A DNA stretch of 38,148 nucleotides from an uncultured Spirochaetota bacterium (lineage in GTDB: Bacteria > Spirochaetota > Spirochaetia > Treponematales > UBA12059). Both the position numbers and the translations under genes were made by a program. Below are positions 33,858 through 37,765 of this stretch, one piece after another (within the stretch, counting starts at the first letter, position 1; every line of letters begins with the position of its first letter). The stretch spans positions 1-38,148 of the forward strand of contig CALMRC010000095.1 in NCBI GenBank assembly GCA_937873275.1, given 5' to 3'. Under the pieces are notes generated by a model, which was not told the origin of the DNA, made no database searches, and saw only the letters and a list, made by a program, of their open reading frames with translations.

Positions 33858-33887
33858 AGCATAGGGATGGGCTTGCCACTTTGTCAA
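33858..33887 (-). promoter_or_regulatory. Promoter of the decarboxylase gene
   Basis: On the minus strand, TTGACA (33887-33882), 18 bases, TATGCT (33863-33858). It overlaps the likely promoter of the divergent membrane-protein gene (TTGCCA 33873-33878, TAAACC 33896-33901), so the two may interfere. Confidence 0.75.
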
Positions 33888-33908
33888 GGATGCGGTAAAC
33901 CGTCGAAT

Positions 33909-34676
33909 ATGACAGGCTTTTTCATCAAAAAGGCGTTTTTCGACGGGTGGGATCATCTCTGGGGCCTGGTCGCCCTGAACCTGGGTTCCCTGGCCCTCCT
34001 GTCGGCTTTCGTGCTGGTTCCCTCCGCCCTGGGGATCCCCGGAGGCTGGCTCTGGGCTGTCCTGGGCTTCCTGGCCCTGGCCGCCTACCACCTTGTCTGT
34101 TCGGCTGCCCTCCGGGAGGCCGCGGAATACCGGAACCTTTCCGTGCGCGCCTTCCGGGATGCCCTGCGGGAGCACGGGGCGGCCGGATTGGCCTTCGGGG
34201 CGGTCCTGGCCCTCCTCGGGGTCCTCTTCCTGACCGCCGTCCCCTTCTACCTCTCCCGGGGCGGAATCCTGGCCTGGTTCGCGGCGGGGACCCTGTTCTG
34301 GTGCTCCCTGATCCTCCTCCTGGCCCTCCAGTGGTTCCCCGCCGTCCGGGCCCTGCTCCCCGGCCCGCTCCGGTCCTCGGTCCGGAAGTGCTTCCTCCTC
34401 CTGGCGGACAACCTGGGCTTCTCGGTCTTCCTCTTCCTGTATACCTTGGCGGGTCTCGTCCTCTCGGTCTTCTCCGCCTTCCTGGCTCCCGGGATCGCCG
34501 GGGCCGCCCTGGGAACCGTGGACGCCCTGCGGCTCCTCCTCAAGAAGTACGACTGGCTGGAGGCCCACCCCGGGACGGACCGGCGGAGGATCCCCTGGGA
34601 GGACCTGCTCGAGGAGGAGCGGGAGCTGATCGGGAAGCGCACCCTGAAAGGAATGATCTTCCCCTGGAAGGAATAA
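33909..34676 (+). CDS. Hypothetical integral membrane protein
   Basis: A 255-residue protein with about five hydrophobic segments (near residues 18-40, 48-66, 90-115, 120-145 and 175-205) and a charged C-terminal domain of about 50 residues (LLKKYDWLEAHP, then EDLLEEERELIGKRTLKGM). The N-terminus (FFIKKAFFDGWDHLWGLV) recalls the DUF624/YesL-like membrane proteins, but this is not firm. I chose the ATG at 33909 since the hydrophobic start follows directly; an upstream ATG would add 14 unlikely residues. The gene stands 66 bases before the PilZ gene. Function is unknown. Confidence 0.72.
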   Translation: MTGFFIKKAFFDGWDHLWGLVALNLGSLALLSAFVLVPSALGIPGGWLWAVLGFLALAAYHLVCSAALREAAEYRNLSVRAFRDALREHGAAGLAFGAVLALLGVLFLTAVPFYLSRGGILAWFAAGTLFWCSLILLLALQWFPAVRALLPGPLRSSVRKCFLLLADNLGFSVFLFLYTLAGLVLSVFSAFLAPGIAGAALGTVDALRLLLKKYDWLEAHPGTDRRRIPWEDLLEEERELIGKRTLKGMIFPWKE

Positions 34677-34704: not shown

Positions 34705-34734
34705 TTGACCTCGGCGCCCCGGATGGCCTATAGT
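34705..34734 (+). promoter_or_regulatory. Promoter of the PilZ-TPR-phosphoesterase operon
   Basis: TTGACC (34705-34710), 18 bases, TATAGT (34729-34734). The PilZ ATG at 34743 lies 8 bases after the -10 box, with no ribosome site: a likely leaderless message. Confidence 0.7.
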
Positions 34735-34742
34735 CGAGCCGT

Positions 34743-35621
34743 ATGGCCATACTCACAAGCCAGCAGATCTCAAAATACTACGACACATTCCGGACGATCG
34801 ACGTCACCTTCACCAAGGAAGTCATAAAATCCACGGCTCTCCAGCCCCAGCAGGTATGCCTGAAATGCGTCGGGGAGCAGTGGCCCTGCGTAATCTATTC
34901 CACCTCCTTCTCCGGCGCGAAGATCCTGGCCAGCGCCAAGAGCGTCCTGGGCGAGCGGATCAAGCGCGCCAACAACATGGTCAGCCTGCGGTTCTCCTTC
35001 AAGATCTCGGACAAGGCCGATCCCCGGGCTTTCTTCGTGGCCGGCAAGGTGACCGGCTTCGCCCCGTACGCCCAGTCGAACGGCGACCTGCAGTTCATCA
35101 ACATCCAGTACACTCAGCGGCCCCCGGACGACCTCATCGAGATCCTGGGGCGCCTGCTGGAGGCCAACGTGAACTCCGCCCGGCGGCGGGACGAGCGGAT
35201 CCTCCTGACCGCGGACGCCATGCGGCGGATCGGCCTTCAGTCCAAGGACACCTTCGTCTTCATCCAGGGGGTGCCCCGGAAGTGCATCGTCCGGGACCTG
35301 TCCTTCGGGGGGGGCAAGGTGATCCTGGTGGGCCTGGCCAAATTCCTGGTGGGCCGGGACTGTCTCCTGCGGCTGGAATTCGACGAGCCCCGGGAGGCCC
35401 TGGACATCAAGGGAAAGGTCGTCCGCTACGAGGACGTCGAGGGACGGAAGGATTTGGCCGCCCTGGCCATCCAGTTCGACGAGCAGCAGGTTCCCATGAA
35501 CTACAAGATTCATGTCAACGATTACATCGTCCAGACCCGGGGACCCAAGACCGAGGACAATCCGGAGGCTTCCGGCCCGGGAGCGGTCCCGAAGGGCGGC
35601 GGAGAAACCGATGGAAGATGA
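34743..35621 (+). CDS. PilZ-domain c-di-GMP receptor, spirochaete two-part type
   Basis: A 292-residue cytoplasmic protein. The C-terminal half has a PilZ domain with the c-di-GMP-binding pattern RRRDERI (near residue 150) and DLSFGGGKV (near 185). The N-terminal half (residues 1-130) resembles a PilZ-like companion domain seen in spirochaete PlzA-type proteins. C-di-GMP binding is expected from the motifs. The last 30 residues are disordered (Pro/Gly/Glu). Its stop lies 8 bases inside the TPR gene, so the two are co-translated. A promoter without a leader drives it. Spirochaete PilZ proteins affect motility and host adaptation; that extension to this protein is inference. Confidence 0.9.
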   Translation: MAILTSQQISKYYDTFRTIDVTFTKEVIKSTALQPQQVCLKCVGEQWPCVIYSTSFSGAKILASAKSVLGERIKRANNMVSLRFSFKISDKADPRAFFVAGKVTGFAPYAQSNGDLQFINIQYTQRPPDDLIEILGRLLEANVNSARRRDERILLTADAMRRIGLQSKDTFVFIQGVPRKCIVRDLSFGGGKVILVGLAKFLVGRDCLLRLEFDEPREALDIKGKVVRYEDVEGRKDLAALAIQFDEQQVPMNYKIHVNDYIVQTRGPKTEDNPEASGPGAVPKGGGETDGR

Positions 35622-36738
35622 CGACGAGTCCCGGCTCCGGAACATAGTCTTCGTGCGGCTTCCCGAGGATTTCGCACGGTCCGTCGAGGGGTTCCGGCTG
35701 GATCCCTCCGTTCCCTTGCCCGTGGAGACCGGGGGGGACCCGGAGCGGTTCCGGCCCGGGGACCTGGTCCTGGAGGCCATCCTCGCGGGGATGCTGCGGG
35801 TCCTGGCCTACCGCCCCGACCATCCCGACGCGGCCTACTACCGCCGCTTCGTCTCGACCGTGAAACCGGCCATCCTGGCCGAGCTTTCGGAGGCGGGGAT
35901 CCTCAAGAGCCGCAACGGGGACCTGGACGTGGCGGAGGAGATCTTCCGGGCCCTGATCGGGCTGGATCCGGACCGGCCGGAGTCCTACCTCAACCTGGCC
36001 ACGGTGTACGAGAAGCGGGCGGAGGAGTACGGGAGGCTCGACAATCCCGGGCTGGAGGAGGAGTTCTCCCAGCGGGCCTTCGACCTCTACCGTCGGCTCC
36101 TGGCCTTCGAGCCCCCGGTCCCGGACGCCTATTACGAGGCGGCCTTCTTCCACCTGAAAAACCGCGGGTACGACCGTGCCCGGGAGCTTTTCGAGACCTA
36201 CGCGACCCTCGGGGCCGACCCGGAGAGGACCGCCCGGGCCCGGGAGATCGTCCGGAAGCTTCGGGCCCAGGGCAACCTGGACAACCTGTTCAAGGAAGCC
36301 TACGACTTCATCCGACTCGGCCGGGAGGAGGAGGGCATCGGGAAGGCCCGGGAGTTCCTGAAGGCCTACCCCAAGGTCTGGAACGGCTGGTTCCTCCTGG
36401 GCTGGGGCAACCGGCGGCTGGGACGCTGGGCGGAGGGCCGGGAGGCCTTCGAGAAGGCCCTGGAACTGGGCGCCGAGGACGCGGACACCCTCAACGAGCT
36501 GGCCATCTGCCTCCTGGAGCTCGGGGAGTACCGGGAATGCCGCCGTCGGCTGGAGGCGGCCCTCCGGCTGGAACCCGACAACGTGAAGATCATCTCCAAC
36601 CTGGGGACCCTCGCCCTGAAGCAGGGCCGGCCGGACGAGGCCGAGCGGTTCTTCCGGACGGCCCTGGACCTGGATCCCCGGGATCCCCTCGCCAAGAGTC
36701 TCCTGGAATCCCTGGCGGGCGATGGCCGCTCCGGCTGA
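35611..36738 (+). CDS. TPR-repeat protein
   Basis: A 375-residue protein without signal peptide or membrane segment. The N-terminal 100 residues are not repeats. From about residue 95 at least six tetratricopeptide-like helix pairs follow, for example AEEIFRALIGLDPDRPESYLN, YDRARELFETYATLGADPER and GRWAEGREAFEKALELGAED; the last two units are the clearest. Such proteins are scaffolds for other proteins. The ATG at 35611 has GGAG 7 bases ahead and overlaps the PilZ gene by 11 bases; its end overlaps the phosphoesterase gene by 17. A role in a c-di-GMP output complex with its two neighbours is inferred. Confidence 0.88.
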   Translation: MEDDDESRLRNIVFVRLPEDFARSVEGFRLDPSVPLPVETGGDPERFRPGDLVLEAILAGMLRVLAYRPDHPDAAYYRRFVSTVKPAILAELSEAGILKSRNGDLDVAEEIFRALIGLDPDRPESYLNLATVYEKRAEEYGRLDNPGLEEEFSQRAFDLYRRLLAFEPPVPDAYYEAAFFHLKNRGYDRARELFETYATLGADPERTARAREIVRKLRAQGNLDNLFKEAYDFIRLGREEEGIGKAREFLKAYPKVWNGWFLLGWGNRRLGRWAEGREAFEKALELGAEDADTLNELAICLLELGEYRECRRRLEAALRLEPDNVKIISNLGTLALKQGRPDEAERFFRTALDLDPRDPLAKSLLESLAGDGRSG

Positions 36739-37765
36739 GTCCCCACCCTCCGGGCCCGCCCGGGGCCGCCGGACGGACGACCTCCTTCGGCGCGCCCGCC
36801 GGGCGGAGTCCAAGCCCTCCCTTCCGGACAGTACGGAACTCACGGAGGTTCTCCGGGCCGCCGCGGAAACCCGCGCCTCGGATCCGGCGGTCCGTCCCCG
36901 GAAGGCTTCCGGCGCGCCCGGGGGCCTGGTCTCCCTGCCCGGGCATCTTCCCGCCCTGGTGCTCCCGGACCTGCATACCCGGGCGGGGCTCCTCCGGAGG
37001 GCCCTGGAGAGGATCCCCCCGGGAGAAACCCGCCCCGTCCTGGAACTCCTGGAGGCGGGAGATGCGTTCCTCCTCCTCCTGGGCGACCTCTTCCATTCCG
37101 AGGGGCCCGACGCCCCGGCCCGGTGGGAGCGGGCCTACCGGGAAGCCTGGACGGGCTTCGCCCTCCACGAGGACATGGACGCGGAGATGGCCCGGGCCCT
37201 TTCGGCCCTCGACGTCCTGGCCCGCGTCCTGGTCCGGTTTCCCGGCCGGGCGGCCTGCCTGAAGGGGAACCACGACAATTCCCGGAACCGCGAGGGTTCC
37301 GGGGACCACGGATTCTATAAATTCGCCGACGAGGGGGCGATGTGCGCCGCCTGGCTGGCGGCCTTCACGCCCCCGGAATTCCGGGACGCCCTGGCCGGGT
37401 TCGAAGGCTCCCTGCCTTTGGCGGCCCGGGGCGCACGGTTCGCGGCCAGCCACGCGGAACCGGCCTTCCCCCGTTCGGAGGCGGACCTGGTCGAGGCGGC
37501 CCCGGAGACCGTCGAAGCCCTGACCTGGACCGCGAACGGCCAGGCCCTTCCGGGATCCGTGGAGGCCTGCCTCGAAGCCCTCCTGGGCTCCGGGGCCGCC
37601 GGCTCGGGGGCCCGATGGATCTCGGGCCACCGGCCCGTGGAGGGCCGGTATTCCCTGCGCGCGGAGGGCCTCCTGGTCCAGATCCACGCCCCCTTCCGGT
37701 TCCAGGGGGCCTGGGTCCGCCCCGATCGACCCTTCGACCCGGAAACGGATATCCTGGACCTTTGA
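36722..37765 (+). CDS. Calcineurin-like metallophosphoesterase
   Basis: A 347-residue cytoplasmic protein with a two-metal phosphoesterase core. The motifs are LVLPDLHTR, LLGDLFHSE, LKGNHDN, SHAEP and ISGHRPVEG, in the standard order. About 80 residues precede the core (Ser/Pro/Arg-rich, probably flexible). Motif 1 is DLH instead of the common DxH with Asp-x-His-Gly, still able to bind metal. The start at 36722 overlaps the TPR stop by 17 bases; there is no clear ribosome site, in keeping with translational coupling. The substrate could be a protein phosphate, nucleotide or phospholipid. It ends the PilZ-TPR operon. Confidence 0.88.
   Translation: MAAPAESPPSGPARGRRTDDLLRRARRAESKPSLPDSTELTEVLRAAAETRASDPAVRPRKASGAPGGLVSLPGHLPALVLPDLHTRAGLLRRALERIPPGETRPVLELLEAGDAFLLLLGDLFHSEGPDAPARWERAYREAWTGFALHEDMDAEMARALSALDVLARVLVRFPGRAACLKGNHDNSRNREGSGDHGFYKFADEGAMCAAWLAAFTPPEFRDALAGFEGSLPLAARGARFAASHAEPAFPRSEADLVEAAPETVEALTWTANGQALPGSVEACLEALLGSGAAGSGARWISGHRPVEGRYSLRAEGLLVQIHAPFRFQGAWVRPDRPFDPETDILDL

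Follow-up and report, generated by a model that had tools for sequence, protein, structure and literature searches.

The nearest known counterparts of the locus analysed here include the spirochaetal c-di-GMP receptors of the PlzA class. In the accessible parts of the literature, PlzA of B. burgdorferi and TDE0214 of T. denticola are both linked to motility, and no TPR partner is mentioned for either (PMC4013479, PMC8323883, PMC10519070). The same parts describe B. burgdorferi plzA mutants as reduced in swarming and PlzA as devoid of the YcgR N-domain (PMC4013479), table a c-di-GMP affinity of 1.73 uM and motility roles for TDE0214 (PMC10519070) and, in one study, suggest that apo-PlzA depends on a partner protein or other interactor (PMC8323883). 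For phosphatases, the accessible text on the Sulfolobus Arn network lists the FHA protein ArnA, the vWA protein ArnB, the kinase ArnC and PP2A (PMC6509490). Eukaryotic PP5 joins TPR helices to a PPP-like catalytic domain within one chain. V. vulnificus rcbAB is reportedly a TPR operon whose proteins affect c-di-GMP signalling; TPR proteins and c-di-GMP signalling are what it has in common with our locus, a likeness of description and not of sequence.

The PilZ receptor gene and its putative promoter

We analysed a 38,148-nucleotide stretch of DNA from an uncultured Spirochaetota bacterium (the whole of it is called the window here), in which genes for a PilZ protein, a TPR protein and a metallophosphoesterase (MPE) follow each other on the same strand (Table 1). 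The ORF coordinates bear out the three-gene arrangement reported in an earlier note on this DNA, with overlaps of 11 bases between PilZ and TPR (35611-35621) and 17 bases between TPR and MPE (36722-36738). A longer version of the TPR ORF could start from an alternative ATG at 35512. The co-directional membrane-protein ORF upstream was absent from the earlier note.

Table 1. Coordinates of genes, promoter and motifs at the PilZ-TPR-MPE locus of the window.
Feature	Position	Strand	Remarks
Membrane-protein ORF	33867-34676	+	co-directional, 5' of PilZ; ends 66 bases upstream
Sigma-70-type promoter, TTGACC-18-TATAGT	34705..34734	+	10/12 consensus match
PilZ ORF	34743-35621	+	292 aa
RxxxR motif, R148-R152	35184..35198	+	R148 invariant, R152 at least 90% (60 aligned rows)
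DxSxxG motif, D185-G190	35295..35312	+	S187 and G190 invariant, D185 at least 90% (60 aligned rows)
TPR ORF	35611-36738	+	375 aa counted from the conserved start
MPE ORF	36722-37765	+	347 aa
MPE metal motif DxH (D83, H85)	36968..36976	+	invariant in 45 rows
MPE metal motif GD..H (D122, H125)	37082..37096	+	invariant; occupies the place of PPP GDxVDRG
MPE metal motif GNH (N183, H184)	37265..37273	+	invariant; aligned with PP1 GNHE
MPE metal ligand H244	37451..37453	+	invariant
MPE metal motif GH (H303)	37625..37630	+	invariant

Judged from its sequence, the first gene product is a PilZN3-PilZ c-di-GMP receptor of the PlzA class. Pfam assigned PilZN3 (PF20424, 2.4e-60) and PilZ (PF07238, 8.9e-11) and nothing else, so that no YcgR-type PilZN N-domain was found. 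PilZN3, the N-terminal domain of the class, scored 202.9 bits (cut-off 27.4), and the family profile matched Borrelia PlzA (7mie) at 6.6e-68. The two-domain architecture and the c-di-GMP motifs RxxxR and DxSxxG, which are intact, are common to the window protein and B. burgdorferi PlzA, in keeping with its earlier reading as a putative c-di-GMP reader. Against the PlzA equivalog NF047404 it reached 79.8 bits, far under the curated cut-off of 450, and TDE0214 is likened to it by class and description, not by sequence. With the flagellar brake YcgR it shares being a PilZ protein tied to flagellated genomes; it differs by its PilZN3 N-domain and its TPR partner. Since the window's own genome holds 28 GGDEF matches, c-di-GMP is probably produced.

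A single promoter had been proposed for the three genes, and the sigma-70-type site listed in Table 1 agrees with this at the level of a consensus match. Its -10 element ends 8 nt ahead of the PilZ ATG. With transcription starting 6-7 nt after a -10 element, the PilZ mRNA is predicted to be leaderless or nearly so (a leader of 0 to about 9 nt). A site matching the consensus at no fewer than nine of 12 positions and ending 5-16 nt before the start codon was present at 47 of 65 PilZ loci, at 3 of 68 TPR genes and at 3 of 46 MPE genes; the remaining 18 PilZ loci did not show the near-leaderless arrangement. In a control that let the start be any ATG among the first 60 codons, the site preceded 44 of 59 PilZ genes and 7 of 250 starts of other genes, drawn from 19 further gene families of the PilZ loci themselves. 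Shine-Dalgarno matches of at least 4 were found at 49 of 68 TPR genes and at only 12 of 65 PilZ genes, and Borrelia-type loci carry a Shine-Dalgarno sequence at PilZ in place of the near-leaderless promoter. Searches of the open-licence literature found no published trace of a near-leaderless plzA.

The PilZ-TPR pair across Spirochaetota

The TPR product matched many Pfam TPR models, and its structural model (pLDDT 96) consists of helical repeats following a short N-terminal strand region. A fold search returned generic TPR superhelices only; the role of scaffold ascribed to the protein is plausible.

We searched each gene in 392 Spirochaetota genomes and found PilZN3 in 176, TPR in 188 (at E 1e-25) and MPE in 103. 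Among the matches listed (149 of the 176 PilZN3 genomes, 150 of the 188 TPR genomes), PilZ and TPR were adjacent and co-oriented in 115 of the 118 genomes having both. The three exceptions are one pair that really is adjacent (G212, locus L052), one TPR gene at a contig edge (G283, L117) and one genome with the two genes on different contigs (G342). TPR directly followed PilZ in 53 of 60 fetched PilZ loci (all except L046, L061, L094, L096, L097, L098 and L099), and the 53 pairs overlapped or touched in 16 cases and were spaced by at most 30 bases in 37 and at most 100 bases in 50. Using lineage labels assigned from gene content and genome size (Borrelia-, Borreliella- and Sphaerochaetaceae-like, class Spirochaetia), the pair was kept in all five Borrelia-like loci (L101-L105) and missing from the Borreliella-like loci L118 and L099; a search for a TPR remnant in Borreliella-like loci found none. 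In the open-licence literature there was no published trace of the pair. At individual loci we observed flaB immediately after PilZ, with no TPR (L094), and a stop-split PilZ followed by a mere TPR fragment, possibly a decaying pair (L050:5158-6302, G177).

The pair persists although its flanking genes differ among lineages. The deep-branch order is infC-rplT-zapA-PilZ-TPR-flaB-flaB-flaG-fliD, with gene names read from the sequence and not from database matches; of the 60 PilZ loci, 14 had a zapA-like gene just upstream and, up to 2.5 kb downstream, 16 had flaB and 14 had fliD. In the window's family, by contrast, an RlpA-like gene, a decarboxylase and the membrane protein lie upstream and glycine-cleavage-like genes downstream. 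PilZ-TPR is a deep, ancient unit and the three-gene set a local addition. The earlier note had treated all three genes as one coupled operon and had regarded separation in most relatives as evidence against this. The PilZ-TPR part of that reading stands. The trio as one conserved system does not, since among the matches listed only 4 of the 84 genomes that have both PilZ and MPE carry them no more than 3 kb apart; the unit had been drawn too wide. A c-di-GMP-gated phosphatase is conceivable only as a possible lineage-specific elaboration.

Within class Spirochaetia (213 genomes, counted as genomes and not as independent events), PilZN3 occurred in 168 of the 172 genomes that have flagellin and in none of the 41 that lack it; for TPR the corresponding numbers were 140 and 39. 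The flagellin-less set covers 41 of the 42 genomes without flagellin: 20 that were listed and 21 class members absent from the flagellin matches. In the class, PilZ is thus confined to flagellin genomes and TPR is kept without flagellin, which ties PilZ to flagella and points to another, older role of TPR. Flagellated class genomes never had TPR without PilZN3, and all eight PilZN3 genomes outside the class carried TPR, which was not within about 5 kb of PilZ in the three outside-class loci examined (L096-L098). Some flagellated lineages, namely Borreliella-like genomes and the small-genome G056, have PilZ but no TPR, so PilZ is able to function on its own. Most of the 107 positions conserved in TPRs with a PilZ partner were retained after PilZ loss; F179 was the only one to differ in each of the three groups lacking PilZ, so that no PilZ-specific surface stands out on the TPR protein.

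One genome, G370 (about 95% complete), encodes no flagellin and no PilZN3 anywhere and retains TPR-MPE. Its locus has the order of the window minus PilZ, with TPR directly after the membrane-protein homologue, and tblastn matches to a PilZ remnant there were at chance level only. In Sphaerochaetaceae-like genomes TPR remains after infC-rplT; at one such locus (L106:5692-7433) it overlaps a gene that we take to be tsaE-like, a hint of a housekeeping role.

The phosphoesterase and its kinase-cassette relatives

The window MPE gave no Pfam match, and 33 of 45 relatives matched PF00149 (Metallophos). Its structural model (pLDDT 94) has the fold of PPP catalytic domains, with the catalytic domain of PP5 as best structural match (VIA Z 24.2, 257 aligned, 2.9 A), PP1 at Z 23.6 and a best Foldseek E of 6.5e-10. 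The calcineurin-type metal-site motifs DxH, GD, GNH, H and GH were all invariant in the 45 aligned MPEs, as was G121. PPP Ser/Thr phosphatases bear the signatures GDxHG and GDxVDRG; the window MPE reads PDLHAR and GDLFHSE. As it has no GDxVDRG, we call it PPP-like and regard a protein substrate as uncertain. The same difference (GDxxHSE for GDxVDRG) separates it from PP5, which the TPR-MPE pair resembles in combining TPR helices with a PPP-like domain, albeit in two overlapping ORFs and not one chain. A function as c-di-GMP phosphodiesterase seemed less plausible and was set aside on the grounds of the modelled PPP-like fold and the kinship with kinase cassettes.

Among the matches listed, an MPE stood beside TPR in 5 of 78 genomes; six genomes or records with a TPR-linked MPE are known in total. 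In an unrooted tree of 52 MPEs (L008, L040, L048, L059 and L100 left out as duplicates), all TPR-linked copies formed one clade (100/99) with the Treponema record L009, in which a TPR end lies upstream of the MPE (91% identical). The MPE is a single-origin addition on the TPR side of the pair. Linked MPEs span two families, with 40-79% identity to the window protein, and the window genome has a second copy that the tree places among solo copies.

Immediately after the MPE, 46 of 46 solo loci carry a gene of one homologous family, and the four members tested are protein kinases (PF00069, about 1e-53). An FHA or unnamed small gene usually comes before the solo MPE. Near linked MPEs, no kinase match was found in the window, where none lies directly downstream as in the FHA-phosphatase-Ser/Thr-kinase cassette, or in L008, L009, L040, L048, L059 and L100. 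Given the invariable place of solo copies before a kinase-family gene, the window MPE is, by sequence kinship, probably a relocated PPP-like cassette phosphatase; as the tree is unrooted, we can only infer the direction, from cassette to TPR. At E 1e-40 the cassette kinase had no match in G378, G308 and G370, all of which kept the linked MPE. The linked MPE has thus outlived the kinase cassette and, once, PilZ, with TPR as its only constant neighbour, and this is what chiefly speaks for TPR and the phosphatase as a pair.

The cassette of FHA or small gene, PPP-like phosphatase and Ser/Thr kinase is widespread in Spirochaetota (L014-L039 minus L025, L119-L139), in some cases with FHA and VWA-FHA genes further downstream; searches of the open-licence literature found no published trace of it. 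As far as the accessible text on Arn goes, FHA, VWA, Ser/Thr kinase and PP2A-type phosphatase occur together there as in the solo cassettes L119-L120. The window MPE differs in being bacterial and outside such a cassette, and any motility role of it would be conjectural. A phage origin of the locus was rejected, as there was no phage match.

A receptor-adaptor model and its alternatives

The sequence comparisons establish the order, motifs and conservation of the genes, their patterns of loss, the phylogeny and the kinship with the cassette. We favour, with modest confidence, a two-gene c-di-GMP receptor-adaptor core to which one branch added a TPR-bound 'split PP5' phosphatase. The PlzA-class PilZN3-PilZ receptor and the TPR protein dedicated to it would share a single transcript. 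Translation of PilZ would begin at a near-leaderless start, and that of TPR would be coupled to it through re-initiation close to where the PilZ gene ends. PilZ carrying its ligand would, in flagellated spirochaetes, most likely dock on TPR and alter the scaffold's cargo, and the output would be flagellar motility. TPR would have an additional, older role independent of PilZ and flagella. A PPP-like cassette-related phosphatase would, in one branch of the order, have become fixed behind TPR, probably as a TPR-bound protein phosphatase, that is, PP5 split over two genes. The physical contacts, protein substrates and c-di-GMP control in this model are what we infer. Its most complete form, in which TPR is the effector platform of a PlzA-type receptor with a near-leaderless mRNA and the captured phosphatase makes a c-di-GMP-switched two-gene PP5 analogue, is tentative and, taken as a whole, unlikely.

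Other readings of the phosphatase have to be weighed. It may have landed behind TPR by chance and be co-expressed without contact, as the single origin of the linked copies and the location of most of the family elsewhere would allow. However, TPR-MPE adjacency was kept across two families at the divergence given above, in three genomes without the cassette kinase and in G370 after PilZ loss, and we regard such hitch-hiking as possible, if on the unlikely side. The overlapping genes behind one promoter-like site, the intact PilZ and MPE motifs and the probable presence of c-di-GMP would suit a single c-di-GMP-gated phosphatase complex of all three proteins as the function of the operon. This is rather unlikely, given how rarely MPE lies beside PilZ, the PilZ-TPR pairs without a neighbouring MPE almost everywhere and TPR-MPE without PilZ in G370.

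For the pair itself, adjacency could be nothing but inherited gene order without joint function. TPR stays in 39 of 41 genomes without PilZ or flagellin and PilZ stays without TPR in Borreliella-like genomes, as such inheritance would allow. Yet the pair held while neighbours on both sides changed, no flagellated class genome had TPR without PilZN3, and PilZN3 genomes outside the class had TPR in 8/8 cases, though at a distance in L096-L098; mere inheritance is therefore improbable in our view.

On the favoured receptor-adaptor reading, a TPR gene beside the PlzA-class receptor in nearly every genome with both is an obvious partner candidate. It is missing from the Lyme lineage, the site of most PlzA work and the one whose Borreliella-like loci have no TPR gene, and is present in the relapsing-fever-type Borrelia loci examined. 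The loss patterns make the idea of a TPR partner testable. If true, the phosphatase branch would link c-di-GMP with Ser/Thr phosphorylation.
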